26,349 nucleotides of DNA from a virus. The position numbers and the translations under genes are program-made. Within the stretch, counting starts at the first letter, position 1. Each line of letters opens with the position of its first letter. The stretch covers positions 1 through 26,349 of IMG/VR virus record IMGVR_UViG_3300013285_000514. One strand, written 5' to 3'. Below, in pieces: positions 4,480 through 22,534 of the stretch. Under the pieces are notes generated by a model that worked only from the letters and a program-made list of their open reading frames with translations, made no database searches and was not told the DNA's origin.

Positions 4480-5451
4480 ATGTCAATGTCATTTTCATCT
4501 ATACCTTTCGAAACAATAACCAAATTTGGCCAACAAACTATGTTGGATCGTCCATTATTTAACATAAGTTGGATATTGGGAAGATTTTGTAATTATAACT
4601 GTAGCTATTGTTGGCCGTATGCTCGAAGTGATAAATTGGATCACCAAAATTTAGATGTATACAAGTCTACAATAGATGAGATTAAACGTCAAGCTCGTTT
4701 GAACGGATTCAACGAATTTCATTGGAGCTTTAGTGGCGGTGAACCCACTGCATATAAACAGTTGCCAGAATTGGTAAAACACTTAGACGAGCTCAAAAGT
4801 ACTTACCAAAGTATCCATATGACCACTAATCTAAGTCCTGGCTCAAAATGGTGGAACAATTGGTGTCGAAATACAGAGTTATTGCAACGCAGAAGTATTA
4901 CTGCCAGTTTCCATGACGAGTTCGCCAAAGAACAAGAGTTTGGCGACAAGTGCTTACAACTAATGTATGAGCGTGTTCATGTAACTGTTAACCAAGTGAT
5001 GGTTCCGGAAAAGTTTTTTGAAACACTAGAACGCTGTGAGCGTCTACGTTCTCGTGGAATTAATGTAACACTTAAACCTCAAAGTAATGATACTGCTACA
5101 ACAATCGTAGAAGGATATACTCCTAAAATGATCGAGATTATGCAGGACGATTATGAACAACAAGAAGGTTTTCAGATTAGGCTGACTGACGGCAAGCAAG
5201 ATTACTTTATAGATCAAGCAGAGCGTTTTAATGCGTTAGGGTTTAATAAGTTCCAAGGATGGACTTGCAATGCTGGATACCAAAGTGTTATTATACGAGG
5301 TACTGAGGTTAAACGTGCATACAGTTGTAAAGAAAACAATATAGGAAACATACTTACAGGTTTTGATTTATTCAAAGAACCTAAAAAATGTATTACACCC
5401 ATTTGTGTAAGTAGTGCAGACAGCAAAATACCAAAGATTAATAATGCCTGA
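4480..5451 (+). CDS. Radical SAM protein, family A (SPASM-like C-terminus)
   Basis: A 323-aa protein. The radical SAM cluster motif CNYNCSYC gives C37, C41 and C44, and the SAM-binding FSGGEP motif is at residues 84-89, so the core looks intact. After the barrel, a GWTCNAG motif and later cysteines (YSCKENN, KKCITPIC) form a short SPASM-like region that may bind an auxiliary 4Fe-4S cluster. Radical SAM enzymes cleave SAM to a 5'-deoxyadenosyl radical; the substrate here is unknown. It is a paralog of the protein at 11031-11987, sharing the CNY(N/D)CSYC core and the G(W)TCNAG tail. It overlaps the next radical SAM gene by 8 nt, so the two are co-translated. The start may be 4480 or the in-frame ATG at 4486. 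Confidence 0.88.
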   Translation: MSMSFSSIPFETITKFGQQTMLDRPLFNISWILGRFCNYNCSYCWPYARSDKLDHQNLDVYKSTIDEIKRQARLNGFNEFHWSFSGGEPTAYKQLPELVKHLDELKSTYQSIHMTTNLSPGSKWWNNWCRNTELLQRRSITASFHDEFAKEQEFGDKCLQLMYERVHVTVNQVMVPEKFFETLERCERLRSRGINVTLKPQSNDTATTIVEGYTPKMIEIMQDDYEQQEGFQIRLTDGKQDYFIDQAERFNALGFNKFQGWTCNAGYQSVIIRGTEVKRAYSCKENNIGNILTGFDLFKEPKKCITPICVSSADSKIPKINNA

Positions 5452-6544
5452 GTTTATACTTAAACAAGCCAGCAAGTATCCAAACATTAGTAACTTAGCC
5501 AAACATAGTTGTACTAAGATGTTTACTAACTTTGAGATCGACTATTACGGCGATGTTAGAATTTGTTGTAAAACATGGATGCCTGAGCCTGTAGGAAATC
5601 TTCTTGAACAATCAGCATCAGAAATTATCAACAGCCAAAAAATTAAAGGTATGCTGTTTGACATGCGTCAAGGCGGATTTGGTTATTGTAACGACTTGTG
5701 TCCAACCTTAAATGATTTTCTACACGATAAATCACAATTTTATATTGTACCCAAAACAGAGGTAGATAATCAAATTAAAGGACAGTCTATTGTTGTAAAC
5801 TTTAGCTATGATCCTAGTTGTAATTTGCAATGTCCTAGTTGTCGCAGTGAATTGTTGATGGTAGATCCTATTAATCCCACAGATCCTCGAGAATTACACA
5901 TTTTACAGGTACATGAAAAAGTTAAATTGTTAGTCGACGAGCTGTTATCAACTGGCCGTATTATAACACTATCTATCACAGGTAGCGGAGATCCATTTGC
6001 TGGAAATATATTTTGGAATTATTTAAAAGACTTGTCATCTAAAACTGTACCTGCTAATTTACGTATACAGTTAGTTACTAATGGCACGTTGATGACTGAA
6101 AAGCGATTACTAGAAATTAAATCATTGTGGCCGCATATTACAAATGCAAGTGTTAGTATCGATGCCGCGACCGAAGAAACATATAAGGTAGTTAGGAAGA
6201 ACGGTAGTTTTAACAACCTAAAAAAGAATTTAATACATTTTGATTCGTTAATTATGTCAGGTGCATTTCCTAGGTGGCAAGGGTGGCAAACTAATTTTAT
6301 TGTACAGAGAGATAATTTTAGAGAGATGAAAGAATTTGTGGAATGGCAGTTAACATACTTATCACGTCCTGTAATATGGCTACACTTGATAGCACAGTGG
6401 TATCATATACCCGACGAGAAGTTTAAAGTAATGGCAATACATTTAGATGGGCATGACTTTAAAAATGACTTAGTAGAAATTATTAAAGATCCTGTGTTCA
6501 GTAATACACAAGTTAGAATGGGTAATTTAAACTCAATTACTTAA
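5444..6544 (+). CDS. Radical SAM protein, family C (N-terminal SPASM/twitch domain)
   Basis: A 366-aa protein. Cysteines lie N-terminal to the core (C23, C41, C42, C82, C86), with FEIDYYGDVRICCKTW resembling the beta-hairpin of a SPASM/twitch auxiliary-cluster domain. The radical SAM motif CNLQCPSC follows (C126, C130, C133). The usual GGEP is replaced by TGSGDPF, and an SIDAATEETYKVVRKNGS segment is typical of the barrel. An auxiliary domain placed before the barrel recalls the N-terminal-twitch radical SAM class found in phages and bacteria. I chose the ATG at 5444 because it overlaps the upstream stop by 8 nt; an earlier in-frame ATG at 5414 lies inside the previous gene. The end overlaps the convergent radical SAM gene by 12 bp. 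Substrate unknown. Confidence 0.85.
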   Translation: MPEFILKQASKYPNISNLAKHSCTKMFTNFEIDYYGDVRICCKTWMPEPVGNLLEQSASEIINSQKIKGMLFDMRQGGFGYCNDLCPTLNDFLHDKSQFYIVPKTEVDNQIKGQSIVVNFSYDPSCNLQCPSCRSELLMVDPINPTDPRELHILQVHEKVKLLVDELLSTGRIITLSITGSGDPFAGNIFWNYLKDLSSKTVPANLRIQLVTNGTLMTEKRLLEIKSLWPHITNASVSIDAATEETYKVVRKNGSFNNLKKNLIHFDSLIMSGAFPRWQGWQTNFIVQRDNFREMKEFVEWQLTYLSRPVIWLHLIAQWYHIPDEKFKVMAIHLDGHDFKNDLVEIIKDPVFSNTQVRMGNLNSIT

Positions 6545-7612
6545 CTTGGTAACATCTAAATTATCAAACTCTGCTGGATCGTTATATCTGCCATCGAATG
6601 ATGAACACGTACCTGCGCAAGTGGCTAACCTTCCCGTAGTATAATCTTTGTCCCAGCTATTGCTAATGCCATTAAAGAACTCACCGTTGAACACAGTATC
6701 CCATTCTTGTAAGTGTAAGTTAACTAAGTCTCCGCCAGTTCGGGCCCATAGCTCATCCCATCCGTCAGGAAACTTCTTACCATGTCTTACCCACAGGCCA
6801 GCACCCAGATAACAACATGGCCACAAGTGACCCAGGTAGTCAATATATGCCGCACGATCTTTTTGTGCATGGCAACTAACGCAAGTCTTTTCAGACTTCT
6901 TAAACCACTCTGATAAGTTCAGAGGTTTAGTTTGCATTACTACCTTGTGTACCATGCCTTCCGTAGTGGGCGGCTGTATCAATACACCATTACCGCCAAA
7001 GCGTTGCACTCCAAACAACTCGTCAAGAAAGAATCTGTGACTAGGTTTAACTATGAATTGTTTAAAACCCAGCGAGTCCGCAAATACACGAGCATCTTCT
7101 ACTTGATGTTGGTTGTGCTGAAACACGATATACTGCCAATTAGCATTGCCACCGGCCGCAATAAATGCTTTGGCATTTTCGATTACTTTGTTCCATTTAA
7201 CATTTACACGATATATGTCGTTAGTGTCAGCAAGTCCATCGATAGCAAACTGTACTTCAGAATTTGGGCCAAGTGCTACTGCTAATCTTGCCCACCAATC
7301 TGCACTTTTCATTCCGCCATTGGTGCTTACGTTGATCTTAAAGTGTGTACCTTTTTCTCTTACTGCCTTACATACTTGTAAAAAGTTAGGTGCCGCACAT
7401 GGATCACCTATCGTGCCTGCAAAGCGTAAAATTTCCAAGCCTGCATAAACATGATTTGGAATACGATTCTTAAAAAAATCTACACTGAGACATTTTTCGT
7501 TAAACCATGAGTGGTCGCCGGGAGTTAATTCTCTAACGCACTGTGGACAAGCCGCATTACAGAATCCGCTACTCTCAATTTCTAGTTCTCGTAGTTTAGT
7601 GTAAAAAGTCAT
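6533..7612 (-). CDS. Radical SAM/SPASM protein, family B
   Basis: A 359-aa protein with the radical SAM motif CNAACPQC (C18, C22, C25) close to the N-terminus. AGTIGDP takes the place of GGEP, and a conserved STNGGMKSADWWARL block follows. The C-terminal CVSCHAQKDRAAYIDYLGHLWPCCYLG region is a SPASM-type auxiliary-cluster domain. It is a clear paralog of the protein at 16425-17513: both share TNGG..(S/N)ADWWARL, FAIDGL, KVIENAKAFI.AGGNA.W and H..HQVE. I prefer the ATG at 7612 because the core then begins just like the paralog; an in-frame ATG at 7633 would add seven residues. It follows the possible kinase-fold gene with a 17-nt overlap, so the two form one unit. Substrate unknown. Confidence 0.86.
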   Translation of the reverse strand: MTFYTKLRELEIESSGFCNAACPQCVRELTPGDHSWFNEKCLSVDFFKNRIPNHVYAGLEILRFAGTIGDPCAAPNFLQVCKAVREKGTHFKINVSTNGGMKSADWWARLAVALGPNSEVQFAIDGLADTNDIYRVNVKWNKVIENAKAFIAAGGNANWQYIVFQHNQHQVEDARVFADSLGFKQFIVKPSHRFFLDELFGVQRFGGNGVLIQPPTTEGMVHKVVMQTKPLNLSEWFKKSEKTCVSCHAQKDRAAYIDYLGHLWPCCYLGAGLWVRHGKKFPDGWDELWARTGGDLVNLHLQEWDTVFNGEFFNGISNSWDKDYTTGRLATCAGTCSSFDGRYNDPAEFDNLDVTKLSN

Positions 7613-8297
7613 GTTGTTGTATGATAGTGTCAATTAAGTCTGCTGGATAATTAGATCTAAAACTGTTAAATGCTACTTGTTGTAATGTTTTAACATTGTA
7701 AGGAGTATCTAAGTCCATGCCTGCATCTTTTAAAACTACTCCTAACTTTTCTTGTCGTTCATAACTTATTTGTTTTAGTACATTGCGTATTGTAATGTTA
7801 GACTCTGCTTTATCATAACAGAAGAACCAATTGAACGGAATCAATACTCCATTATTTGCAACCCAACTATTAGGATGCAAGCTAAACTTCATAATATTCT
7901 GGCTCCACATTTTCTTCACTAAATCGACCCATTGTGTTTTCCAATCAGGTAGTACTGCATCGTATCCTGATACTCGCCCTTGCATATAAAAATCATCTCC
8001 ATACCATTCGACGAAGATTTTACGGTTAGTATGATCAACATCTTTAATAGCTAACGTAGGCATTACTTTAGATGCACGAGTATGGAATTCTAATTCTTTC
8101 TCAAATCGCTCAATTAAATCTGGTTCAGTCCAATTTACATTTTCGTAATCATAAATATGATATGCTGGATCTCTGTTAAAGCTCATACAAAATGTTGTTT
8201 TGTCTGGACTCACATAAGGAGTGTACACTAAGTTTGCACGAACCATTTCGTCGCCTTCCTTATTGTAGTACAAGTTCCAATTTGAGATATTAGTCAT
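7596..8297 (-). CDS. Unknown protein, possible kinase-like fold (233 aa)
   Basis: A 233-aa protein. After an Asn/Tyr-rich N-terminus there is an acidic helix (ERFEKELEFHTRASKVMPTL), a strand pair with RKIFVEWYGDDFYMQG, a helix containing WVDLVKKMWSQNI, then KFSLHPNSWVANNGVLIPFNWFFCYDKAE (about residues 137-165). The SLHPNSWVANNG...F.W.FCYD arrangement is reminiscent of the catalytic and metal-binding loops of small-molecule kinase folds, but there is no HxD and no clear nucleotide loop. Kinase or pseudokinase is therefore only a guess. It is the first gene of a two-gene minus unit with the family B radical SAM gene and lies head-to-head with the oxygenase at 8340. I see no Shine-Dalgarno. Confidence 0.7.
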   Translation of the reverse strand: MTNISNWNLYYNKEGDEMVRANLVYTPYVSPDKTTFCMSFNRDPAYHIYDYENVNWTEPDLIERFEKELEFHTRASKVMPTLAIKDVDHTNRKIFVEWYGDDFYMQGRVSGYDAVLPDWKTQWVDLVKKMWSQNIMKFSLHPNSWVANNGVLIPFNWFFCYDKAESNITIRNVLKQISYERQEKLGVVLKDAGMDLDTPYNVKTLQQVAFNSFRSNYPADLIDTIIQQHDFLH

Positions 8298-8339
8298 TTT
8301 TTGTTTGATAATTAAGTATATAAACTAGTTATCTACAAT

Positions 8340-9119
8340 ATGATCCGCGGAATAAATTCTCAGCCCTATCTTAACTTAGACTCTTACATAGATGTAGAAG
8401 GTTTCAAAAGCCTTCATTACAAAATTTGTAAGGGTATAGTCATGTCTGAACAGAAGAAAGAAGGCAACATTGTTATGATGGGTGGATGGAATAATCAGTA
8501 TGATGTAACGTGGAAGCCTTTAGCATTTGCCATTGACGAATACAATGCATTACCAGAAGATCATGAAGTTAGAGTGTTGGGCAGAGAAATAGGCGAATGG
8601 GCTAACCGCGATAAGTTTGTATTATTTTTAAAACTTGCCCTCGGCGGTTACGATGCGTATCAGTTTATTTTCCTTAAAACAGAAGATGGCGGGTGGGAAA
8701 GTCGTTTTGAAGAAAAGCAATGGACGCACGATGCACAATATTTTCTAGAATTGAAACAATGGTTAGAAAAACTAGTACCCAGTGTGTTTACACATCTTGG
8801 CCGCATTATTATTTTTAAAGCAGAACACGATTGTATAATGCCGCTACACAGAGATTTAATATACCCTAACGAAACTGATTATTTTGATCATAGACATGAA
8901 TTTATACATATCCGTCCTAATGCCGATAAACCATTTTATATCTGGGATAGCGAAGCTGATAATAAAGTATTAGTAGAAAGCCATGCAACATTCTTTAACG
9001 ACCAGGACTGGCATGCAGGTGGACGTACTAACAAACAAACTTACAGTATTCGCATAGATGGTGTGTTTACAGAAGAGTTTCGTAACAAGATAGGCATCGG
9101 GCACCTACCTGGTTATTAA
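8340..9119 (+). CDS. Fe(II)/2-oxoglutarate oxygenase-like protein (DSBH fold)
   Basis: A 259-aa protein with the facial-triad pattern H170-x-D172 (PLHRD), a distal H225 (DWHAGG), and R238 in YSIRIDG as the likely 2-oxoglutarate carboxylate ligand. Strands such as HEFIHIRP, FYIWD and ATFFND fit a double-stranded beta-helix. By family knowledge such enzymes hydroxylate or desaturate with O2, Fe(II) and 2OG. The N-terminal 90 residues are an extra domain. It is a paralog of the protein at 17539-18312, sharing IN..P(Y/F)LNLD.Y near the start and GVFT(E/D)EFR at the end. Both copies are divergent from a family B radical SAM gene. The end overlaps the convergent oxygenase-like gene by 4 bp. No Shine-Dalgarno. 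Substrate unknown. Confidence 0.82.
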   Translation: MIRGINSQPYLNLDSYIDVEGFKSLHYKICKGIVMSEQKKEGNIVMMGGWNNQYDVTWKPLAFAIDEYNALPEDHEVRVLGREIGEWANRDKFVLFLKLALGGYDAYQFIFLKTEDGGWESRFEEKQWTHDAQYFLELKQWLEKLVPSVFTHLGRIIIFKAEHDCIMPLHRDLIYPNETDYFDHRHEFIHIRPNADKPFYIWDSEADNKVLVESHATFFNDQDWHAGGRTNKQTYSIRIDGVFTEEFRNKIGIGHLPGY

Positions 9120-9640
9120 AGTTCGTAGCTGACTAGTTGAAAACTTACTTTAGGTTCAAAGCCAATATTAGCCGCACCGTGCCATTCTCTAGCATTATCA
9201 AACTCAAATAAGTCACCACGTTTATACTCTAGCATTTTTCCTGCGTAGAGGAAAATGTGTCCGTCAATGTGATCCTGCATTGCCATCCAGAAACGTCTAA
9301 AGCTCTTGGATTCTGTTTTAAACGCATCAACGTGTAAGGGAAAAACCTTACATGGTTCGATCTTACACATCCACCACTCAATTGTACCCGGCAAGTCTAT
9401 AGGCAGTTTTAAGTCCTCCATGCTAGTCATTCCAAAGTCATTAAAGTAGTGCATACTCCAGCCAGCGCCTTTTAAGTCATAGCCCAAATTCCACCACTTG
9501 TCTGCTTGTTCCTTTTTCCAAGGATCGTCTTCTTTTAGATAAACAGGACGAGCCTCACCCCTTCCATCTAAAGTCATCTGTAGTAGCTGAGGATTGGCAT
9601 CGATCCAATCTGCATAATTTCCGATATATTTCATAGTCAT
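9116..9640 (-). CDS. Fe(II)/2-oxoglutarate oxygenase-like protein (174 aa)
   Basis: A 174-aa protein with H103-x-D105 (PLHVDAFK) and a distal H154 in REWHGAANIG, spaced as in the iron-binding triad of cupin-fold oxygenases. Strands FLYAG, GDLFEFD and VSFQLVSYEL fit the beta-helix. Basic residues that could bind 2-oxoglutarate occur (R115, R116, K164), but which one does so is unclear. It resembles compact peptide-hydroxylase relatives rather than the longer 8340 type. I chose the ATG at 9640: it lies 5 nt after a perfect TATAAATA late promoter, and the extra 33 residues of a longer frame would overlap the divergent gene at 9680. A possible second ATG is two codons further in. Confidence 0.78.
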   Translation of the reverse strand: MTMKYIGNYADWIDANPQLLQMTLDGRGEARPVYLKEDDPWKKEQADKWWNLGYDLKGAGWSMHYFNDFGMTSMEDLKLPIDLPGTIEWWMCKIEPCKVFPLHVDAFKTESKSFRRFWMAMQDHIDGHIFLYAGKMLEYKRGDLFEFDNAREWHGAANIGFEPKVSFQLVSYEL

Positions 9641-9645
9641 AAAAT

Positions 9646-9653
9646 TATTTATA
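9646..9653 (-). promoter_or_regulatory. T4-type late promoter
   Basis: A perfect TATAAATA on the minus strand, followed by 5 nt (ATTTT) and the ATG at 9640. In T4 the octamer spans about -13 to -6, which would place the transcription start on or beside the A of the ATG, giving a leaderless mRNA. No Shine-Dalgarno is present. Confidence 0.7.
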
Positions 9654-9666
9654 GTTATTGAAAACA

Positions 9667-9674
9667 GATAACTA
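9667..9674 (+). promoter_or_regulatory. Weak late-promoter-like octamer
   Basis: GATAACTA matches six of eight positions of TATAAATA and is followed by five T and the ATG at 9680. The match is poor, but the 5-nt spacer is the same as in the divergent promoter at 9646-9653, with which it shares a 39-bp intergenic space. Confidence 0.3.
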
Positions 9675-9679
9675 TTTTT

Positions 9680-11104
9680 ATGACAAACAAGACATTCTGG
9701 ATTCAGCCTAAAGAAACTCAAATCGGACAATGGCAACAACAGATTACAGATTTAACTGGTAGCCCAAGTTTTTGTGTATTGCCCTGGATACATTTAGCGA
9801 CCCGTCCAAACGGCGATATGCGTATCTGTTGTGTTGCCAATGCTAGTGGTGCCGACACCGGAGATTATAGTGTTGGACTAGTTAAAAAAGAAGATGGTAC
9901 TCCTGCTAACTTTGCACACGATTTGCCCACCGAGGCATTTAATAATGATTATATGCGTAGTGTACGTAAGACTATGTTGGAAGGTGCTGTTCCTGCTAGT
10001 TGTACTAAATGCTTTAAAGAAGAAGAACAAGGCATGGCAAGTAAACGTATATGGGAAACTGGTACTTGGCATTTACAAGAAGGTATTGACATTCCTGAAC
10101 TTATTGCTCAAACAGCAGAAGACGGTAGTGTGCCTTACCAACTGCAATATTTGGACTTACGACTAGGCCACACTTGTAATCTTAAATGTATTATGTGTAG
10201 TCCACATGACAGTAGTATGTGGGTTCCAGAACACAAGAAAGTATTTCCTATATTCACTAGCCCATTAATTAAAAAACAAATGAGTTGGCAAGCTGACGAG
10301 TTTAATAACAAGTGGCACGAAAATCCTAAGTTCTGGGAAGAAATTTACGACCAGATTCCTAACATTAAACAGTTATATTTTGCTGGTGGTGAACCGTTAC
10401 TAATTAAAGAACACAAATCTTTCTTATTGGAAATTATTGCTCGCGGATATGCCGGTAAGATTACACTACGCTATAATACTAACGGTACACTAATCAGTGA
10501 AGAAATGATTGACATATGGAGTAAGTTCCGTAAAGTCAAAGTTGGCTTTAGTTTGGACGGCATGGAAGAACGCGGCCACTATATTCGCTATCCATTAGAT
10601 TGGGACGCAGTAGACGCTAATCTAACTATGTTAGATAACGCACCGGATAACATACAGACCAACATTGCTTTTGCTGTACAAATTTTAAATATCAAACACG
10701 TACCGGCATTTATTAAATGGAAGGTTAAACGTAATTTTAAGAAGATCAACTTTGACAAGAACGCCAGTGGTCAAACAATGGGTGGCGGATTGATCGGTGT
10801 ACACTTGTTATGGATTCCTACTTGGCTAAGTCTACGGGTATTGCCAAAGGAAGATAAACTGGCGGTGCGTGAATTGTTTGCTGAACTACAAGAATGGTTG
10901 TGGAAACACTACACTCAAGACAAAGAATTTTGGGAAGTTAATCCCTACGGTTGGAAACGTTGGGAAGGCATACTGGACTGGATGGATGCTGAAGACCATA
11001 CCAACTTACTGCCAGACTTTAAAGATTACATTACAACAATGGATGCTCAACGTCAGACTGACTTTGCTGTTGTGTTTCCAGAGCTTGCACACTTACTTTT
11101 GTAA
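9680..11104 (+). CDS. Radical SAM protein, family C (N-terminal twitch)
   Basis: A 474-aa protein. The N-terminal domain carries C32 (FCVLPWIHLATRPNGD), C50/C51 (MRICC) and C108/C111 (ASCTKCFKEE), the layout of the 'twitch domain-containing' radical SAM class with an auxiliary cluster ahead of the barrel. The core motif CNLKCIMC gives C166, C170 and C173, then FAGGEPLL and RYNTNGTLIS. The C-terminal 130 residues are Trp-rich and helical. It is a relative of 12900-14159 (same FC..P(W/F).(H/G)LATR.(N/D)G opening) and more distantly of 5444-6544. The last 74 bp overlap the convergent radical SAM gene. The ATG follows a T-run without a Shine-Dalgarno. Substrate unknown; proteins of this class are usually unassigned. 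Confidence 0.88.
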   Translation: MTNKTFWIQPKETQIGQWQQQITDLTGSPSFCVLPWIHLATRPNGDMRICCVANASGADTGDYSVGLVKKEDGTPANFAHDLPTEAFNNDYMRSVRKTMLEGAVPASCTKCFKEEEQGMASKRIWETGTWHLQEGIDIPELIAQTAEDGSVPYQLQYLDLRLGHTCNLKCIMCSPHDSSMWVPEHKKVFPIFTSPLIKKQMSWQADEFNNKWHENPKFWEEIYDQIPNIKQLYFAGGEPLLIKEHKSFLLEIIARGYAGKITLRYNTNGTLISEEMIDIWSKFRKVKVGFSLDGMEERGHYIRYPLDWDAVDANLTMLDNAPDNIQTNIAFAVQILNIKHVPAFIKWKVKRNFKKINFDKNASGQTMGGGLIGVHLLWIPTWLSLRVLPKEDKLAVRELFAELQEWLWKHYTQDKEFWEVNPYGWKRWEGILDWMDAEDHTNLLPDFKDYITTMDAQRQTDFAVVFPELAHLLL

Positions 11105-11987
11105 GAGGAATGTCTGCCGCGCAGGTACAGAAATTTCTATCGCATCTAACGGGTTCGCTAGGAGCAACAAAGTTGCCTTCGTATATGTTGCCTAGACTAC
11201 CACCGACTCTACAAGTGGCGCGATGTACATCACCGTCCCAATTTATCATGAGACTTTCTATACCTGCGTTGCAAGTCCAACCATTAAATTTATTCTGATG
11301 ATTCTTAATCATGTCGTTGGCATGATACAACAACTGTGCATATTCTTTATCTAACCAAACTACTGTATTTGCTTCTACTGTAGATTCTAATTCTTTAAGC
11401 AAATCCAAATCATTTGTATTATAACGCATGTCGTCAAACAAGTCATGGTCGCCTTGTGTCCAACGTATACGACGAACAGTATTAGGAATATGTCCCAACA
11501 AACACTTAGCACGTAATTGTGTAACAACATCCATGTAATCATGGTGTGCCATAATCTGTGCTATGACTTTTATTCCAGTTATCTTATGTACACTTTCTAC
11601 AGTATTGAATACACGTTGCCAGTCGTATTCTAAGTGTATGCTAAACACATATTGATCCACCGGTAATTTAGAATAAAACTCATAAGGTAGAGTGCCATTA
11701 GTTGTTACGTTAATCCAACTAATTCCAACATGCTTACAGTATTTTATAAGTTCTTCAAACTTGGGATGAACGCAAGGCTCGCCGCCCGTAAAACTAAGAC
11801 GTACAGGTTTACCTAACAGCATCAATTTATCTACAGTTGCTTTAAGTATTTCTATATTAGTATGCGGACTGGAATTGTCGTGTATACTACTAGGACAATA
11901 GCTACAGTCGTAGTTACAACGCTTGCCAAGATTCCATTCAATCTTAATAGTATTTTGATGAGGATAGCGACTTGTTACTTTAATCAT
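11031..11987 (-). CDS. Radical SAM protein, family A (SPASM-like C-terminus)
   Basis: A 318-aa protein with CNYDCSYC (C24, C28, C31), SFTGGEPCVHP and NVTTNGTLP, a complete radical SAM core. The C-terminus has GWTCNAGIESLMINWDGDV followed by C-rich segments (RATCRVGG, VRCDRNFCTCAAD), suited to an auxiliary 4Fe-4S cluster. It is a paralog of 4480-5451. It is the last gene of a five-gene minus operon and its ATG lies 8 nt inside the preceding gene. The final roughly 25 residues, a Gln/Ser-rich tail, are read from DNA that also encodes the end of the convergent gene at 9680, so that tail is probably a by-product of the overlap. No Shine-Dalgarno. Substrate unknown. Confidence 0.86.
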   Translation of the reverse strand: MIKVTSRYPHQNTIKIEWNLGKRCNYDCSYCPSSIHDNSSPHTNIEILKATVDKLMLLGKPVRLSFTGGEPCVHPKFEELIKYCKHVGISWINVTTNGTLPYEFYSKLPVDQYVFSIHLEYDWQRVFNTVESVHKITGIKVIAQIMAHHDYMDVVTQLRAKCLLGHIPNTVRRIRWTQGDHDLFDDMRYNTNDLDLLKELESTVEANTVVWLDKEYAQLLYHANDMIKNHQNKFNGWTCNAGIESLMINWDGDVHRATCRVGGSLGNIYEGNFVAPSEPVRCDRNFCTCAADIPLTKVSVQALETQQQSQSDVEHPLL

Positions 11988-14880: not shown

Positions 14881-15724
14881 CTTCTAAATACCTTATCAAT
14901 GGACTTACTCCTACTGGCTGTCCGTTACGCAATGCCAAGTAAATGCTTTTAGTTGGTGTAAGATTAAAGTCTTTACACACTTTATAATAGCGTTCACCGT
15001 GCGTGTTCCACAAATAGTCGGGTTCTAGATTACGTATAAAATGTAATGCGATCATAGCAGGTGCGCGATTATTCATTTGAAAATCATTCATTATACTAAT
15101 AGCATCGGGTTTAAGATTATTAGTAAATCTTAAACCTATTCTATTCCAACCAAGACCCAAACCTTTGCTTAAACTAAATGATGCGCTTTCAATCGGCACA
15201 TAGATTAAATTAAGTCTGATGTTTCGACAGCAAGACATCCATGCCGCATCGATGTGTACTGTTACGTGTTTGTAAAAAGCTTCTTCCATTAAATCACTAA
15301 ATCCGCGAGTCGTATCTCCTGTGCTAGGAAACGGCTGTGCCAAAATTAAAGGAAGGTCGCCTTTTAAAGAACCGTGCTGTGAATACTCTATATCAGGATT
15401 CAATCTTTCGTGGTAACGATAGTCGCCTTTAAGTATTTGCACAGGACCTTTCATGTATTGTGTATCAATTGACTGTGTGCATCCTGTGATAATATCAACA
15501 CGTTTAAAAGATGCTAGACCTTCTATAGTATTGAGTTTGGATGATAGGAACCAATCAGTACATTCTTCTTTGAAGTTAGTATATACTTGGTCCGAAATAT
15601 CTGTATCAATTTTACCAGTTAATACTTCTTGTTGTAATGCTTCGATTTTTCGATCTGATAGAGGTTGCGGTCTATCAATTTCTAACCAGTGTGCTTCGTA
15701 GGTAGGTGCAACCTTTAGTCTCAT
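14867..15724 (-). CDS. PLP-dependent aminotransferase-like protein (fold type I, short)
   Basis: A 285-aa protein. HIDAAWMSCCRN (D159) resembles the Asp that contacts the pyridine nitrogen of PLP. SFSLSKGLGLGWNRIGLRF (K187, R195) is the Schiff-base lysine motif and phosphate-contacting region of class I/II aminotransferases. A DIITGCTQSID stretch near residue 77 may be the cofactor-phosphate loop. It is about 100 residues shorter than usual (around 390), so the N- and C-terminal small-domain parts are reduced, and activity may differ or depend on a partner. It is the first gene of the five-gene minus operon. The ATG lies 4 nt after GTTAAATA, a weak late-promoter match, with GAGAAGG further upstream. 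Its end overlaps the QueC-like gene by 14 nt. Confidence 0.72.
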   Translation of the reverse strand: MRLKVAPTYEAHWLEIDRPQPLSDRKIEALQQEVLTGKIDTDISDQVYTNFKEECTDWFLSSKLNTIEGLASFKRVDIITGCTQSIDTQYMKGPVQILKGDYRYHERLNPDIEYSQHGSLKGDLPLILAQPFPSTGDTTRGFSDLMEEAFYKHVTVHIDAAWMSCCRNIRLNLIYVPIESASFSLSKGLGLGWNRIGLRFTNNLKPDAISIMNDFQMNNRAPAMIALHFIRNLEPDYLWNTHGERYYKVCKDFNLTPTKSIYLALRNGQPVGVSPLIRYLEDANI

Positions 15725-15728
15725 AAAA

Positions 15729-15736
15729 TATTTAAC
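15729..15736 (-). promoter_or_regulatory. Weak late-promoter-like octamer
   Basis: GTTAAATA on the minus strand keeps the TAAATA core of the late promoter (6 of 8) and is followed by four T and the ATG at 15724. It faces away from the strong site at 15752-15759 inside a 39-bp intergenic region, mirroring the arrangement at 9641-9679. Confidence 0.35.
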
Positions 15737-15751
15737 CTTCTCTTGTTAGCA

Positions 15752-15759
15752 TATAAATA
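15752..15759 (+). promoter_or_regulatory. T4-type late promoter
   Basis: A perfect TATAAATA followed by TTTC and the ATG at 15764. A T4-type start point would fall on or next to the ATG. This site also shows that a longer upstream frame from 15743 cannot be the real start if the promoter is used. Confidence 0.7.
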
Positions 15760-15763
15760 TTTC

Positions 15764-16447
15764 ATGCTAACCAAAACTAACGTACATTTTAACATAGATC
15801 CAATCATAGAGCAAGTACTTTCTTTGTCGTGGGCTGAAAAAAGCATATTATTGAATGAAACGTCCGGCACACTACTCAATGGGCCTTACTGCATATTACC
15901 CGAATTTGTTAATACTCCGTTAGGAGATGTATTAACCAAATTAGGCAACGTTGGTGAGGCAAGATTACTTCGTCTAGAGCCCGGCGAAACTTACTCGGCA
16001 CATACAGACCCGGATGACAGATTGCATTTATCGATCATCAGCAATGAGTTTTGCTATTTGGCCAATTTGGAAAATAATACAATGCATGGACTTCCAGTAG
16101 ATGGATTTATTTGGGAATTAGATACGAGTATTAAACATAGTGCATTTAATCTTGGAAGTTATGTACGCATTAACTTAAATGTTAGAAAATTATTACCAGT
16201 ATTTGTTGAACCCGGGTATGCTGTTACTGCCGACACAGATAAATTTAATTGGAAACAAGAGCTGTATTTAGATGTTATGGGTTATGTTAATCGTAAGATT
16301 AAAGAAGGTGTAATTACTGGATTTACAAAAGTAGACGAACGCACTATAATGGTTACCACCGATGACCGTACAGTATTAAATTATCTAGTAAATATATCTA
16401 ATCTTAAAGGATATCATTTATCAGTTACACCAGTTGGGTTCGAGTAA
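15764..16447 (+). CDS. Aspartyl/asparaginyl beta-hydroxylase-like oxygenase
   Basis: A 227-aa protein. EPGETYSAHTDPDDRLHLSII contains H80-x-D82 and R86-x-H88, and the second half of the motif is H125 (IKHSAFN) with R135 (YVRINLNV). This order (HxD, RxH, distal H, distal R) matches the AspH-like branch of Fe(II)/2-oxoglutarate oxygenases, which hydroxylate Asp/Asn side chains. The C-terminal 80 residues form a separate alpha/beta segment (DVMGYVNRKIKEGVI, ERTIMVTTDDRTV) of unknown role. The ATG at 15764 is chosen because a perfect late promoter ends 4 nt before it. The end overlaps the convergent family B radical SAM gene by 23 bp. Substrate unknown; protein or peptide side chains are plausible by family. 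Confidence 0.8.
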   Translation: MLTKTNVHFNIDPIIEQVLSLSWAEKSILLNETSGTLLNGPYCILPEFVNTPLGDVLTKLGNVGEARLLRLEPGETYSAHTDPDDRLHLSIISNEFCYLANLENNTMHGLPVDGFIWELDTSIKHSAFNLGSYVRINLNVRKLLPVFVEPGYAVTADTDKFNWKQELYLDVMGYVNRKIKEGVITGFTKVDERTIMVTTDDRTVLNYLVNISNLKGYHLSVTPVGFE

Positions 16448-17513
16448 TAAACTGATCTGAAGGTTTTGAAATATTATCCTTGGCCATTACTCCACATGCT
16501 CTTGCACATGTAATCAGTCCTTTTTCTTCCCAGTACTTGTTCCATACTGTTTGATAAGGCAAGCTATCAACGATATCTTTAATTGAAACTACAGTTGCAT
16601 CGATAGCATCAATGCCGCCCAAGTCAGATAATAAATCGTTATATTGTTTTGCTATCTCATAGCGTATAGATGCTATGTTATTATTTGTTTCAAACGGAGT
16701 ATACGGTATCATGGCGATCCAGCAACAAGGAAATACTTTGCCAAATGCATCTATATAAATTTCTTTCAATTCAAGTGCTTGACATCTAATTTCACTAGCT
16801 TTGACGATTGCTTTATAATTTTCAATAACTTTCTTATCAATGAATTTTAGTTCTGTATAGTGTGACGGTTCGATATAATGTGTAGTTTTTCCTTGTTTGT
16901 TGTAAACTGGAAATTGTTTGTCTAACATAAAACGCGAACTATCTTTCATAGTAAAACTACTGAATCTCAATGTGCTAGCCAGTGCTTTTGCTTCTTCAAC
17001 TTGATGTTCATTGTGCTTAAATCTGATATAGGCCCATTCAGCATTGCCACCTGCATCTATAAATGCTTTGGCATTTTCGATTACTTTAGAAAATGTTGTT
17101 CCTATACGATATAATTCATGTGTACCTTCCAACCCATCTATAGCAAATATTACTAAATGCTCTTTTGGTAATGCTTGAACTAATCGAGCCCACCAGTCTG
17201 CATTACGAGCTCCCCCGTTAGTATGGATACGTATAGGAGTATTGGGTGACACTTTAGAAGAGTAGGCACACATTTCAAGTAGTTCGTTGTTAAGTATAGG
17301 ATCGCCAAAATTACCACAGAAGTAATAGCTATTAACTTGATTTAAAACTTCTTTAGTCATAATACGTTTGAATGTATCCAGTGACCATGAATTAATAGTC
17401 ATAAGCGGATTCGGCAAACCTCCGTGTATGTTGCGTGTACACATGGGACAACTGGCTTGACAGTTGTTGGTTATCTCCAAATGGATTGTTTGTAATTCCG
17501 AAAATTTAAACAC
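16425..17513 (-). CDS. Radical SAM/SPASM protein, family B
   Basis: A 362-aa protein with CQASCPMC (C18, C22, C25) just after FSELQTIHLEITNN, the variant CGNFGDP in place of GGEP, and HTNGGARNADWWARL. A SPASM-type C-terminus includes RCQALELKEIYIDAFGKVFPCCW and late cysteines (LITCARACG). It is a paralog of 6533-7612 along most of its length. The start is a GTG at 17513: upstream in-frame codons to 17591 would overlap the divergent oxygenase gene and are not conserved with the paralog. It lies head-to-head, 25 bp apart, with the oxygenase at 17539 and convergent with the AspH-like gene at 15764. Substrate unknown. Confidence 0.84.
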   Translation of the reverse strand: MFKFSELQTIHLEITNNCQASCPMCTRNIHGGLPNPLMTINSWSLDTFKRIMTKEVLNQVNSYYFCGNFGDPILNNELLEMCAYSSKVSPNTPIRIHTNGGARNADWWARLVQALPKEHLVIFAIDGLEGTHELYRIGTTFSKVIENAKAFIDAGGNAEWAYIRFKHNEHQVEEAKALASTLRFSSFTMKDSSRFMLDKQFPVYNKQGKTTHYIEPSHYTELKFIDKKVIENYKAIVKASEIRCQALELKEIYIDAFGKVFPCCWIAMIPYTPFETNNNIASIRYEIAKQYNDLLSDLGGIDAIDATVVSIKDIVDSLPYQTVWNKYWEEKGLITCARACGVMAKDNISKPSDQFITRTQLV

Positions 17514-17526
17514 TATTATAATCCGC

Positions 17527-17534
17527 CATAAATA
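17527..17534 (+). promoter_or_regulatory. T4-type late promoter (7 of 8)
   Basis: CATAAATA, one mismatch from TATAAATA, followed by TTGG and the ATG at 17539. The 4-nt spacing equals that at 15752-15759, so the transcript would again have almost no leader. Confidence 0.55.
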
Positions 17535-17538
17535 TTGG

Positions 17539-18312
17539 ATGCATCTAATTAACAATAAACCGTTTCTTAATTTAGACAAGTATTTAAACATAAATCACTT
17601 CCTATCATTGAAGAAAGACTTCTGCTTGCTATCTGCCCAAAATATCGATAAAGAAGTATCGTCTTGGGCTAGCGGAGGTATAGATGCTGACACTGCGGTT
17701 GAACGTTTTAAAAAACCAACAACGCTATATCAAGCATATCATAATACTAAACAGATTGATGATCCAGTAATGCAAGAACATATTAGTCTATTGGAAAATA
17801 AAGACAGTTACTATGAGCGCGGTGAAGGATTAGCACGTTATTTGCAACTGATGGCAAAAGGATATTGTGCGTTTAAACTATTACGATTAAAAACAGGTGC
17901 CCAGCCTAGTGCATGGCAAGACTTCGTTACTAATGATACTATCAAAGAATGGGTAGATACTTTACCATTCTCTGAAGTCACCAATGTAGATATGTTTTTT
18001 AAAGACAATCATGTTGTTCCGTATATACACAAAGATCATAATTTATTTCCAGTGGAAGAAGGCGATGACAGAGCTACTCCTGGGAAAGTGCAAGAGCTAA
18101 TTTACTTTAGATGGCATGTTGGAAAAGGATTCTGCGTATATGATATAGATGCTGATGGCAATATCATAGAAGAAATCCCATTGGATGGCCATGCTATTTT
18201 TTTTAATCATTACAACTGGCATGGAAAGCTAGGACATTCTATATCGGCATCTTTAGTGCTTAAAATTGAAGGTGTGTTTACTGACGAATTTAGAAAGTTG
18301 ATAAATGAATAA
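17539..18312 (+). CDS. Fe(II)/2-oxoglutarate oxygenase-like protein, paralog of 8340
   Basis: A 257-aa protein with H164-x-D166 (YIHKDH) and H228 (YNWHGKLGH) as iron ligands. The position that is Arg238 in the 8340 protein is K242 (LKIEGVF), so 2-oxoglutarate may be bound by Lys. Shared blocks with the 8340 protein are IN.(K/Q)P(F/Y)LNLD.Y at the start, the double-stranded beta-helix strands, and GVFT(D/E)EFR at the end. I chose the ATG at 17539 because conservation starts there and a late-promoter match ends 4 nt before it. It overlaps the SDR-like gene by 8 nt and so heads a three-gene plus operon. It is divergent from a family B radical SAM gene, as is its paralog. Substrate unknown. Confidence 0.8.
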   Translation: MHLINNKPFLNLDKYLNINHFLSLKKDFCLLSAQNIDKEVSSWASGGIDADTAVERFKKPTTLYQAYHNTKQIDDPVMQEHISLLENKDSYYERGEGLARYLQLMAKGYCAFKLLRLKTGAQPSAWQDFVTNDTIKEWVDTLPFSEVTNVDMFFKDNHVVPYIHKDHNLFPVEEGDDRATPGKVQELIYFRWHVGKGFCVYDIDADGNIIEEIPLDGHAIFFNHYNWHGKLGHSISASLVLKIEGVFTDEFRKLINE

Positions 18313-18847
18313 AATTTTAATAATCGGCGGTACGAATGGACTGGGTAAAAGTTTAGTCGAACAGTTTAATGCTATAGGTATTGGTCGTTCCAACGGTTAT
18401 AAATTGCCCGATACAACGGACAGCGTAATACAGTTGAGTATAGATTACAATGTTATTATTAACTGTTTGCCCGATGTAAATCAAAATACAATTATTAAAG
18501 CACTTTGGCAAAAGCATGTTGAGTTAAGTAAAGATACATATTTTATTAGCATCGGAAGTTTAAGTACTAAAGTTGAAAAATATATGACCACTAAAAAAGA
18601 ACTTGTAGACATAACAGACAAATTTTGGTTAGAAGAAACCAAATGCAAACACACGTTGATCGCTCCCGCCAATCTAGAAGGAGTAGAACTACCGTTCACT
18701 CCATTAAAGTATAATAGTGTTGCCAAAATTATTGATACCTTAATTACGTCATTTAATAATGATGATTATGTAATAGGTACTGTAGAAGTTGTTGGCAAAC
18801 ATGTAACTGATCCCAACTTTAAAAACACTTACGATATCGAGGATTAA
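18305..18847 (+). CDS. Short-chain dehydrogenase/reductase-like protein (short)
   Basis: A 180-aa protein starting with MNKILIIGGTNGLGKSL, a Rossmann nucleotide loop (GGTNGLG). Then come a short NVIINCLPD strand, YFISIGSLST holding the expected catalytic Ser, and YMTTK, which fits the YxxxK catalytic pair. APANLEGVELPF matches the post-catalytic segment. The family usually has about 250 residues; here the region between strands two and four is shortened, but the Ser-Tyr-Lys set is kept, so NAD(P)-dependent alcohol/ketone redox is plausible. It overlaps the oxygenase gene by 8 nt and abuts the next radical SAM gene (TAA followed directly by ATG), so the three are co-expressed. Substrate unknown. 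Confidence 0.78.
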   Translation: MNKILIIGGTNGLGKSLVEQFNAIGIGRSNGYKLPDTTDSVIQLSIDYNVIINCLPDVNQNTIIKALWQKHVELSKDTYFISIGSLSTKVEKYMTTKKELVDITDKFWLEETKCKHTLIAPANLEGVELPFTPLKYNSVAKIIDTLITSFNNDDYVIGTVEVVGKHVTDPNFKNTYDIED

Positions 18848-20452
18848 ATGTACAATGTAGTATTATTTTCCGACTTACCATTTGCACAGTTCTTCAGTAG
18901 GAATTTTGGAATGCATCGACTTGCTACAGAGCTACGTGGCCAAGGTTATACTGTACTATGTGTAAATTATATCTCCAGTATCAATTATGAAAACTATTGT
19001 AAACTAATAGATTTAGCCGTTGGGCCTGAAACATTAATGGTAGGGTTTTCAACTACATGGTTGCCTTACCTAGCATCGGGGAGTGAAAATAACGGAAGGG
19101 CTGTAATCGGTAGCAAACTGTTCTTTGCAGAATACGACAGCGAACAGCATCCGTGGTATTTTGAAAGTATGGGTTACAGATTTACCCAAGAAGGTCCTAA
19201 GTTATGGACTGATTATATTAGACAAAAGAACCATAAGACTAAAATTACAGTGGGTGGTTGTAAAGCCGCAAGTTACGTAACGTTTCCTGAAATTGATTAT
19301 GCATTTATCGGAGCAGGGGAAACAATGGCTGTTGATTTTGTTAATAGTTTAAGCGGTAAAGGCCCTAAACGTATTTTTAATAAAGTGATAGATTACGATA
19401 GAAATGCACAGAATCCGCAATGGGAATTTCGTGAATCGTTTACACAATATATCGAAGAAGACCTACTACGATCAACCGAGTTTATTAATATTGAGTTTAG
19501 TCGCGGATGTATGTTTCAGTGTGCCTTTTGCAGTTACCCATTGTTAGGACAAACTAGTGCTCGGGACATTATCAAGTATAAGGAAGTTATCCGTAAAGAA
19601 CTAATGGATAATTGGGAAAAGTGGGGAGTAACAAAATATCTAATTGTGGATCATACGTTTAACGATTCAACCTTAAAGCTAGAACTAGTTAAAGAAGTAA
19701 TAGACTCACTTCCATTCAAGCCTTCGTTCTGGGCTTATGCTAGAATAGATTTATTTGCTAGCCATCCAGAACAAGCACAACTACTATTAGATATAGGAGT
19801 AAAAGAAGTATTATTTGGATTTGAAAGCCTTAACCCAGAGACTGGCAAGGCAATTAAAAAAGCACACAGGGTAAACACACTCAAGGGATTAAAGATTGCC
19901 AAGAAAGTATGGAAGGATGAAATTTATCTTACTGCTAGTGCTATCTTAGGTTTACCTAAAGAAACTGTTAAATCGTTTGAAGAAACCATTGAATGGTTTG
20001 TCAAAGATGGCCACAATTACATAGATCATTTAGACTATAGTCCGCTAACACTTGTTAGTAGTTTGTTTGATACACGCTATGCTGAAACTAGTATTATCGA
20101 TCGTGATATGAAAAAGTTTGGGTACAGTTTAGGCAACAATTTAAACTGGATTAAAAATGACGGTACTGATATCACCAGCAGAGATCAAACTATTGAAATT
20201 ATTAAAAAGTGGTATGATACCTATAATAAAATTAATAAAGAAGATAAACAGTTGTTTTGGTTGTCGGGTTACGAAGCAGTAAGCTCTGCGCATTCGTATG
20301 AGAATTTAAAAGCAAGGCCTGGTAATGGGTATTTTGGTGCATTATCTAAAGAACATGGTAGCCCAGCTGACTTGTATCGCAAATACACTAGCACGTTGTA
20401 TTGGCCAGAATTATTTGCAATACTAAAACATAAATTAATCTCCGGGAATTAA
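18848..20452 (+). CDS. B12-binding-domain-type radical SAM protein, family D
   Basis: A 534-aa protein. The N-terminal 190 residues look like the cobalamin-binding-type fold seen before many radical SAM barrels: GMHRLATELRGQGYTVLCVN, MVGFSTTW, ITVGGCKA, and IDYAFIGAGE. No DxHxxG is present, so cobalamin, if bound, would be without the usual His ligand. The core motif CMFQCAFC (C221, C225, C228) is intact. KEVLFGFESLNPETGKAIKKAH and SAILGLPKETVKSFEET are typical of the MiaB/Elp3-like barrel. Members often methylate or rearrange unactivated carbons. A GAGG Shine-Dalgarno lies 6 nt before the ATG, inside the SDR-like gene. The end overlaps the convergent GNAT-like gene by 18 bp. Substrate unknown. 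Confidence 0.85.
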   Translation: MYNVVLFSDLPFAQFFSRNFGMHRLATELRGQGYTVLCVNYISSINYENYCKLIDLAVGPETLMVGFSTTWLPYLASGSENNGRAVIGSKLFFAEYDSEQHPWYFESMGYRFTQEGPKLWTDYIRQKNHKTKITVGGCKAASYVTFPEIDYAFIGAGETMAVDFVNSLSGKGPKRIFNKVIDYDRNAQNPQWEFRESFTQYIEEDLLRSTEFINIEFSRGCMFQCAFCSYPLLGQTSARDIIKYKEVIRKELMDNWEKWGVTKYLIVDHTFNDSTLKLELVKEVIDSLPFKPSFWAYARIDLFASHPEQAQLLLDIGVKEVLFGFESLNPETGKAIKKAHRVNTLKGLKIAKKVWKDEIYLTASAILGLPKETVKSFEETIEWFVKDGHNYIDHLDYSPLTLVSSLFDTRYAETSIIDRDMKKFGYSLGNNLNWIKNDGTDITSRDQTIEIIKKWYDTYNKINKEDKQLFWLSGYEAVSSAHSYENLKARPGNGYFGALSKEHGSPADLYRKYTSTLYWPELFAILKHKLISGN

Positions 20453-21049
20453 TTGTTCCCATTCTTCCTGTGTGATAGAAGGAAGTGTAAATGTATTTGG
20501 TTCTAGTTCTTTATAGATAAAATTTTGCCAACATTTTTGCACCATATGCGGACATGTTTGTACATAACCCGGAGCTTCAGTCCAGTAATTATTACTAGCG
20601 GCATTCATGGTCATTTTCCATAAATCCCACCAACGTTTAGTAGGTTTTTTATCTCTATTCTGCATAGTAATAAAATAACAAGAATAATTATTAACAGCCA
20701 TTAGTGGAAATATCATATGATGATGTAAGAACTCGTAACCGTTAATTAATTGAGCAATACTACGTCTGCGCATGTGGGGAAATACATAAGCACGATTGAG
20801 CATACGTCCAACATGTATAGGCCAACGTCCATCATTAAACAGTCCGCCCATGACAATTGGTATATGAGTTTCACTATCATATACAACTACGTAACCTTTA
20901 TGGTCTTCGATTACAAGATTCTCTTTAGTATAGTTGCTACGTAACCAGTTATCTTCTTCTAAGCATAACGTTCGTACTTGTTCAAACTCATCACATGTTC
21001 TGTAATAAATTTTATGATATGCTTTGTTAATATCTACGTATACTGACAA
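20435..21049 (-). CDS. GNAT-like putative acyltransferase (204 aa)
   Basis: A 204-aa protein starting at a TTG preceded by GAGGGG. Its centre, VVYDSETHIPIVMGGLFND then GRMLNRAYVFPHMRRRSIAQLINGYEFLHHH, follows the strand-4/acceptor-loop/helix order of GNAT acyltransferases, although the acetyl-CoA loop is R-R-R-S rather than a canonical QxxGxG/A. The final third is Trp-rich. A possible role is acylation of an amine made elsewhere in the island; this is inference from the fold only. It is a single-gene minus unit, convergent with the radical SAM gene (18-bp overlap) and divergent from the desaturase. The TTG start lowers certainty about the N-terminus. Confidence 0.6.
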   Translation of the reverse strand: MSVYVDINKAYHKIYYRTCDEFEQVRTLCLEEDNWLRSNYTKENLVIEDHKGYVVVYDSETHIPIVMGGLFNDGRWPIHVGRMLNRAYVFPHMRRRSIAQLINGYEFLHHHMIFPLMAVNNYSCYFITMQNRDKKPTKRWWDLWKMTMNAASNNYWTEAPGYVQTCPHMVQKCWQNFIYKELEPNTFTLPSITQEEWEQLIPGD

Positions 21050-21073
21050 ATTATTCCCCTCGTGGAGTTATTT

Positions 21074-21081
21074 AATAAATA
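21074..21081 (+). promoter_or_regulatory. Late-promoter-like site upstream of the desaturase
   Basis: AATAAATA, one mismatch from TATAAATA, 33 nt before the ATG at 21115. Here a normal leader would remain and contains GGAAAAG, a partial Shine-Dalgarno. This differs from the leaderless-looking island promoters. Confidence 0.45.
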
Positions 21082-21114
21082 TGATTATACTAGCACTTAA
21101 TCACGGAAAAGTAA

Positions 21115-21891
21115 ATGTCTACTAACCCTATTTCAAATTTTAATGCACGAATTCGCTGGCTACAAGCTATAAACCATTTAGCACTTTTAGGTGGAATAGT
21201 AGCAATAACTCTTGGGTTTATTTCTACATCTTATCTTTGGATCGGTCTTGCATCCTACTTGTGGTTTGTTTTGATCGGAACTACCATCGGCCTACATAGA
21301 TATTTTAGTCATCGATCATTTAAAACAAGTCGCATTTGGGAATATATCATGGCATGGAGTGGCACAATTTGTACAGTGGGTACAATTATTGGTTGGGCAG
21401 GACTACATCGGTATCATCATGCCAATACTGATACTGAATTAGATCCGCACGATCCTCGAAGAATTGGCATTTGGAATGCCTGGACGTATAACTGGAAACG
21501 CAGTAAATTTGGCAAAAAATTTATTCGTATAGAACTAAGTGATCCTATGATTGTGTTTATGCACAAACATTATTTTAAAATTATCTTTAGTTATATTGCG
21601 TTACTTGCAATCATTAATCCTTGGTTGATCATATGGGCTTATTGTTTGCCAGCTTGCGGATCATATCTTGCCATCAGTGCTGTTACTGTAATTGGACACA
21701 TGCACGGTTATGTAACTTATGATGTAAGTGATAACGCACGTAACAGTTGGATCACTAGTTTATTAAGTTTAGGGGAAGGCTGGCACAATAATCATCATGC
21801 CAGATCTTTTGATTATCGAAACGGTTATCAGTGGTGGGAATTAGACCCAGCGGCGTGGGTTATTGAACACGTAATTAGTAATGGGTCGTGA
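21115..21891 (+). CDS. Membrane fatty-acid (acyl-CoA/acyl-lipid) desaturase
   Basis: A 258-aa protein with the three histidine boxes of the delta-9-type membrane desaturases: HRYFSH (H61-H66), HRYHH (H98-H102) and GEGWHNNHH (H224-H228), plus GHMHG near 195. These bind the diiron centre that oxidises an acyl chain with O2. Hydrophobic segments near residues 20-60, 78-95 and 150-195 fit membrane helices. The chain is near the usual length. No electron-donor (cytochrome b5 or ferredoxin) domain is present, so a host or phage electron carrier would be needed. It starts the last plus unit, and its stop precedes the AspH-like ATG by 7 nt. Role: probably alters membrane or product acyl chains during infection (inference). 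Confidence 0.9.
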   Translation: MSTNPISNFNARIRWLQAINHLALLGGIVAITLGFISTSYLWIGLASYLWFVLIGTTIGLHRYFSHRSFKTSRIWEYIMAWSGTICTVGTIIGWAGLHRYHHANTDTELDPHDPRRIGIWNAWTYNWKRSKFGKKFIRIELSDPMIVFMHKHYFKIIFSYIALLAIINPWLIIWAYCLPACGSYLAISAVTVIGHMHGYVTYDVSDNARNSWITSLLSLGEGWHNNHHARSFDYRNGYQWWELDPAAWVIEHVISNGS

Positions 21892-21898
21892 TTATTTA

Positions 21899-22534
21899 AT
21901 GACCCAGGCAAAATGTCTAAAACTAGACATTGCTGTACCACATGAAGAAATGCTAGCTGAAGCAAAAGCATTACGCAAATATTTTATAAAATATGACCAA
22001 GGCTTGGAGTATGTACACAGTGGATGGTACGCTTTACCCTTGCACGGCCTGGGTGTAGATAAAACAAAATCGTATCAAGCATACGGATATACTGATCCAA
22101 ATACGGCAAGCGACAACATGCAGTGGACTGTATTTGCTAATAAATGTCCTGTAACTATGAACTGGCTTGATACTGTATTTCCAAGCGGTAAGTATGGTCG
22201 TGTAAGGTTCATGTTACTAGAAGCCGGCGGACATATTGCATCGCATATTGATAGCGAACATTCTATTACTGAAGCAGTTAATGTTGCATTAAATAATCCT
22301 ATCGGATGCGTATGGACTTGGGGAGATAATAGCACTTTGCAGTTTTATCCTGGTGACGCTTATGCTATGAATATCAGTTACCAACATGCTGTTAACAATG
22401 CTAGCGACGAAGATAGGTATCATCTAATAGTACATCATCACGATTCCACGACAGAGTGGAAGCATATGATGCTCGATGCTATGAAAACTCAAAATGAAAC
22501 TGGTAACTTTTTTTACAGTACAGTCCTTTACTAA
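21899..22534 (+). CDS. Aspartyl/asparaginyl beta-hydroxylase-like oxygenase
   Basis: A 211-aa protein with H116-x-D118 (ASHIDSEHSITEAVNVAL), H163 (ISYQHAVNNAS) and R173-x-H175 (DRYHLIVHH). These are the iron and 2-oxoglutarate contacts of the AspH-like Fe(II)/2OG oxygenases. RVRFMLLEAGG, CVWTWGD and GDAYAMN are the beta-helix strands around them. It resembles the 15764 protein in motif order but is more canonical, and it has a Trp/Tyr-rich N-terminal part. I chose the ATG at 21899; an in-frame ATG at 21881 overlaps the desaturase stop and would add six residues. Co-transcribed with the desaturase. Substrate unknown; peptides or proteins by family analogy. Confidence 0.78.
   Translation: MTQAKCLKLDIAVPHEEMLAEAKALRKYFIKYDQGLEYVHSGWYALPLHGLGVDKTKSYQAYGYTDPNTASDNMQWTVFANKCPVTMNWLDTVFPSGKYGRVRFMLLEAGGHIASHIDSEHSITEAVNVALNNPIGCVWTWGDNSTLQFYPGDAYAMNISYQHAVNNASDEDRYHLIVHHHDSTTEWKHMMLDAMKTQNETGNFFYSTVLY

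Follow-up and report, generated by a model that had tools for sequence, protein, structure and literature searches.

A conserved island of radical SAM enzymes and oxygenases in large phages has a counterpart in Bdellovibrionota

What does a phage make with eight radical S-adenosylmethionine (rSAM) enzymes encoded alongside five oxygenase-like proteins? The question is raised by the IMG/VR virus record IMGVR_UViG_3300013285_000514, analysed here over its entire 26,349 bp (the window), in which positions 4,480-22,534 form a tightly packed island with a coding fraction of 99.3% and just three gaps of 42, 18 and 65 bp. We propose, with a probability of roughly 0.4, that this island is a late-transcribed multi-enzyme tailoring pathway of large T4-superfamily phages, whose product would most likely be a displayed glycoconjugate or a modified peptide; we are moderately confident of that product class.

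All eight rSAM proteins, S1 to S8, match PF04055 at E ≤ 1.4e-5 in a profile search and retain the CxxxCxxC motif, with S3 and S7 slightly below the Pfam gathering score. An earlier note on this DNA had counted seven intact cores; the motifs are indeed intact, but the count was too low, as what it listed as the region 16425-18848 comprises two genes, S7 and S8. The most distinctive members are S4 (9680..11104, + strand) and S6 (12900..14219, − strand), twitch-domain enzymes that exceed the curated NF033640 cut-off of 170 bits with 393 and 330 bits, respectively; their rSAM cysteines and N-terminal twitch cysteines C50, C51, C108 and C111 are invariant, and S6 is the most conserved gene of the island. 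S5 (11031..11987, −; PF04055 6.7e-13) has C-terminal cysteines and S1 (4480..5451, +; 4.7e-13) additional ones, while S3 (6533..7633, −; 1.8e-6) and S7 (16425..17591, −; 1.4e-5, and phrog_21308 at 1.6e-24) form a single family. S2 (5414..6544, +), which is rare in relatives, carries an N-terminal SPASM/twitch region (PF13186 8e-8, PF04055 2.4e-7), and the models nearest to S8 (18848..20452, +; PF04055 2.8e-16) are those of B12-binding rSAM enzymes (TIGR04072 2e-20, below cut-off).

The five oxygenase-like proteins previously read in the window, O1 to O5, all have the HxD motif and a later histidine. O5 (21881..22534, +) is a clear member of the Asp/Asn beta-hydroxylase family of 2-oxoglutarate (2OG) oxygenases (PF05118 4.3e-13, above cut-off), and O3 (15743..16447, +) is Asp/Asn-hydroxylase-like with a match below the cut-off (PF05118 3e-4). 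A Pfam profile search returned no match for O1, O2 or O4. In the family alignment of O1 (8340..9119, +; HRD...H) and its paralogue O4 (17464..18312, +; HKD...H), the triad H170, D172 and H225 is invariant, and the 2OG assignment of O2 (9116..9739, −; HVD...H) and O3 comes from motif and sub-cut-off evidence. Three further labels of the earlier note were borne out. The desaturase (DES; 21115..21891, +) matches PF00487 at 2.8e-15, as expected of a fatty-acid-desaturase-type diiron enzyme; the QueC-like PP-loop ATPase (14152..14880, −) has an SGGADS motif and a C-terminal CxxCxxC that are invariant in 26 sequences, phrog_1550 (5.5e-6) covering its C-terminus only; and the aminotransferase-like protein, AT (14867..15724, −), is, by its AlphaFold2 model (predicted local distance difference test score, pLDDT, 92) and Foldseek comparison, a compact fold-type I pyridoxal phosphate (PLP) enzyme in which the Schiff-base residue Lys187, within SLSKG, is invariant. 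The possibility that most of these motifs are inactive finds no support.

This set of genes recurs far beyond the window. A scan of IMG/VR with S6 yielded at least 108 relatives, of which the 80 listed share 66-85% identity. Per-gene counts were taken over 82 loci, many of them truncated: S6 is present in 82 of 82, S5 and the S3/S7 family in 80 each, S4 in 77, O3 in 72, the island-linked gene g06 (2848..3450, −) in 69, the kinase-fold gene K in 60, S1 and AT in 58 each, O1 in 57, the QueC-like gene in 48 and the O2 family in 47. Homologues cluster in every related contig examined; PF04055 matches number 7-14 in each of the 23 contigs searched whole and are clustered where placed, and loci of at least 20 kb (n=47) have a median of eight rSAM genes (5-13) and four 2OG-type genes (1-7). 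The neighbourhoods AT-QueC-S6-S5 and g06-S3/7-S1 recur, while order, orientation and accessory genes vary among phages. Window genes tested against their nearest relatives gave dN/dS (nonsynonymous to synonymous substitution) ratios from 0.03 to 0.13; dS was saturated or nearly so, and by this sequence-based measure the tested genes are under purifying selection.

Such variability could also be produced by chance accumulation of selfish or unrelated auxiliary metabolic genes at a hypervariable site. The shuffled order and orientation and the variable accessory genes would suit that explanation, as would the nearest relatives, which differ from gene to gene and make the island a mosaic. A core that is fixed in nearly all loci, the purifying selection and the chromosomal counterpart described below nevertheless render it extremely improbable. 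Instead, clustering, intact motifs and low dN/dS together support a biosynthetic or modification system, as had been suggested from the window.

Could that system modify nucleic acid, as 7-deazaguanine-like or tRNA chemistry? The QueC-like PP-loop protein and weak QueE matches of S1 and S5 point in this direction, as does a QueD-like gene near the rSAM genes of the Campylobacter phages CP220 and CP21. However, every QueE score lies far below the cut-off, the window has no QueD, FolE or transglycosylase gene of a queuosine or 7-deazaguanine pathway, and a single PP-loop protein stands amid many unrelated oxygenases. We consider a nucleic-acid substrate very unlikely.

The nature of the carrier is indicated by the largest relative, G001 (353 kb), whose terminase, tail sheath, sheath stabiliser and recombination genes are all of the T4-superfamily kind; its terminase shares 53% identity with the one in the Pseudomonas phage PA5oct group. 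Its gene content identifies G001 as a T4-superfamily jumbo phage, and the T4-like status given here is that of G001 and not of the window itself. In G001, the T4-type late-promoter core ATAAATA lies upstream of 43 of 395 open reading frames, compared with 0 of 780 coding controls. The window shows no excess of exact TATAAATA (2 occurrences versus 4.7 expected), so promoter evidence was drawn from the 82 loci, where ATAAATA occurs no more than 90 bp upstream of 127 of 418 first genes of same-strand runs versus 24 of 1,220 inner genes, making it about 15 times commoner before run-leading genes (Fisher p ~1e-57). It also precedes 44 of 72 members of the O3 family. This enrichment at run-leading genes makes expression late in infection most likely for these loci; the late action formerly proposed for the island is backed by the group-wide statistics, not by the window alone. 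Within the window, ATAAATA is found 40 bp upstream of the desaturase (at 21075) and 47 bp upstream of the adjacent tail-type gene (23829-24932, −), whose product has a weak Mtd_N match (4e-5).

Outside viruses, homologues of S4 and S6 in bacterial genomes concentrate among metagenome-assembled genomes (MAGs) of Bdellovibrionota. Large contigs of this group (for example, of 936 kb and 1.6 Mb) encode both S4 (530-569 bits) and S1 (438-471 bits; 53-54% identity), as well as S3/7 and g06, the last adjoining S4/S1, and the same loci contain the DxD transferase-like families fam35 and fam68. S6, AT, the QueC-like gene and O5 join them in several genomes, all within 20-40 kb. Unlike the phage islands, these loci are cellular and form bigger paralogous arrays, and K, O1 and O3 were not found beside their S4/S1 core. 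The NF033640 cut-off is exceeded in 41 of 144 Bdellovibrionota genomes, with up to 33 matches per genome; AT occurs in four, most copies lying no more than a few kb from a twitch rSAM gene. In one array of about 30 kb (L198/L199; G024 C1, 738-778 kb), most genes encode rSAM proteins, accompanied by two Asp/Asn hydroxylases and AT, in a genome with 33 NF033640 matches. In another (L201; G026 C47, 4953-8850), LeuA-, LeuC-, LeuD- and aminotransferase-like genes, recognized by eye, hint at an unusual amino acid.

Phylogenetic analysis places phage S4 and phage S6 in separate clades, although several rows are long branches. The phage S4 clade (85/72) is sister to a clade of Bdellovibrionota and metagenomic sequences with joint support of 100/99, and S6 groups with other bacterial sequences (100/100). 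The split between S4 and S6 is older than that between phage and bacterium, and the module is therefore common to both lineages. We take the link to Bdellovibrionota as gene sharing and not as host assignment. A bolder extension is that phages captured and diversified a so far undescribed rSAM/2OG assembly line, common to large phages and predatory Bdellovibrionota, whose product would be a novel kind of surface conjugate or metabolite serving in attacks on other bacteria; we hold this to be rather doubtful.

The bacterial loci also bear on whether the product might be a diffusible small molecule of use to phage and predatory bacterium alike, for example an amino-acid-derived metabolite, a signal or an antibacterial. 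The structural neighbours of AT include the O2/PLP-dependent arginine hydroxylases RohP and MppP (Z ~17.7, tied with many aminotransferases), leucine-type genes appear in the one array mentioned above, and an amidinotransferase-like family, fam108, which is absent from the window, occurs in two relatives and matches a CP220 gene. Yet the island lacks a transporter or regulator of its own, expression so late in infection would leave little time before lysis, and we know of no precedent for a lytic phage conserving a whole pathway for export. This makes an exported metabolite unlikely.

Peptides are frequent targets of twitch and SPASM rSAM enzymes, which raises the question of modification akin to that of ribosomally synthesized and post-translationally modified peptides (RiPPs). 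A RiPP cluster with an internal precursor is ruled out by lack of space: as the earlier note observed, no precursor peptide is visible, and the largest gap of 65 bp leaves no room for one. This absence argues against an ordinary RiPP cluster, not against modification in trans, in which SPASM/twitch rSAMs and Asp/Asn-hydroxylase-like enzymes would target a structural protein whose gene lies beyond the island, for instance a tail fibre. The NF033640 membership of S4 and S6, weak matches of several S genes to peptide-maturase models and the late promoters all speak for such a scheme. So does K (7596..8297, −), whose AlphaFold2 model (pLDDT 92.6) adopts a Bud32/Rio-like kinase fold (Z ~14 in a structure search) that resembles, among others, the lanthipeptide synthetase ThurKC. 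K is not an active protein kinase by its motifs: the HRD aspartate is replaced by Ser, Thr or Ala, and the DFG aspartate is retained in one subfamily and is Asn in the other, defining a large pseudokinase-like family over the 82 loci that frequently adjoins oxygenase or rSAM genes. Against such RiPP-like maturation stand, besides the missing precursor, the PLP, PP-loop, GDSL and carbamoyl enzymes, which fit small substrates better, and the Bdellovibrionota loci, in which a non-exhaustive search found no obvious common peptide. We consider this explanation rather unlikely.

For the tailoring pathway that we favour, we infer the order of steps, the substrate and the location of the product as follows. 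The conserved core, comprising the rSAMs S1, S3/S7, S4, S5 and S6 with AT, the QueC-like ATPase, g06 and O3, would draw on radical C-H chemistry, amination and ATP-driven reactions of the amide type to form or re-shape a building block or conjugate rich in nitrogen. The variable 2OG oxygenases, the desaturase and acetyl-, carbamoyl- and SGNH-type enzymes could then decorate it differently in each phage, and the product may be placed on virion fibres or the host envelope late in infection. A displayed glycoconjugate is favoured because relatives carry carbamoyltransferase, GDSL, FkbM methyltransferase and UDP-glucose dehydrogenase families, together with DxD transferase-like neighbours and tail-type flanks, including Mtd_N tail domains. 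Several points weigh against this proposal. The window contains no confirmed glycosyltransferase, and it is only by motif that the DxD proteins are read as glycosyltransferases, a reading that neither Pfam (E=0.075) nor PHROGs nor a PDB profile confirms. Many of these enzyme types are also encountered in pathways to free small molecules.

Clusters of rSAM genes in phages are already known but unexplained. Timms et al. 2010 (PMC2853527) reported 11-12 rSAMs in the Campylobacter phages CP220 and CPt10 (Firehammervirus), together with a cluster of rSAM and amidinotransferase genes that is interchangeable. They are T4-like lytic phages whose five-rSAM interchangeable cluster, of function not known, lies near tail genes (PMC2853527), and they give distant S3/S7-, S5-, rS9- and fam108-type matches, whereas the stretches examined contain no match to NF033640-type S4/S6, AT or the oxygenases. 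Like them, the window has several rSAM genes clustered together, the T4-like character of its group being that of G001; it lacks their glycine-amidinotransferase-like gene. Pelagibacter phage Mosig EXVC030M carries a diverged island beside tail-fibre genes, with profile matches to AT, DES, O5, S3/7, rS9, g06 and SGNH; three MoaA-type-annotated rSAM genes are accompanied by two Asp/Asn hydroxylases, a desaturase, an aminotransferase, a carbamoyltransferase and a GNAT. Mosig differs in having three rSAMs only, without the S4/S5/S6 core and at very low identity, and in its extra nitroreductases and flavin mononucleotide reductase. Host-recognition clusters of pelagimyophages differ by rSAM cassettes (PMC7029224) and sit among tail-fibre genes from VrlC to gp14; the island of the window is flanked by the tail-type gene with the weak Mtd_N match. 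Lastly, the T4-like environmental genome TARA_ERS488813_N000010 has 12 rSAM genes, which the relevant passage treats solely as Fe-S protein load, describing neither clustering nor partners (Nishimura 2017, PMC5332604); the comparison made here is one of rSAM number and genome type.

Searches of an open literature library for phage-encoded rSAM clusters brought up no report of the present system, the window matched no GenBank phage by megablast, and tblastn of S6, the QueC-like protein and AT against phages likewise gave no match. What is new is the conserved core with its NF033640 enzymes, AT, QueC-like protein and oxygenases, the late promoters and the chromosomal counterpart. Unexplained rSAM clusters in phages have been on record since 2010; with a conserved core, a likely time of expression, a selection signature, a predatory-bacterial counterpart and the cultured relative Mosig, the question can now be put to the test. 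Should the product prove to be a new conjugate or metabolite, the pathway would rank with the most elaborate chemistry that any virus carries.

Among the remaining genes, an SDR-like (18305..18847, +) and a GNAT-like protein (20435..21049, −) had been labelled by eye, and Pfam and PHROG lend neither label any support. Likewise, g06 appears methyltransferase-like by eye, but no profile confirms this, a PDB profile included. The interval between S5 and S6 holds an accessory protein (g11983; 11980..12903, −) with no Pfam match. Another, overlapping the end of the island (22494..23789, +), resembles a transferase (glycosyltransferase-like) and a methyltransferase by eye only, with no Pfam or PHROG match; a similar family, f22, is seen again among related phages and in arrays of Bdellovibrionota. 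Four loci labelled as Thermoplasmata, Rickettsiales, Neisseriaceae and Gammaproteobacteria MAGs (L111, L115, L116 and L128) look like misbinned phage contigs with the same island families. Finally, the window encodes a homologue of translation initiation factor IF-1 (2460-2678, −; PF01176 2.5e-19), which is also found in 16 related loci.

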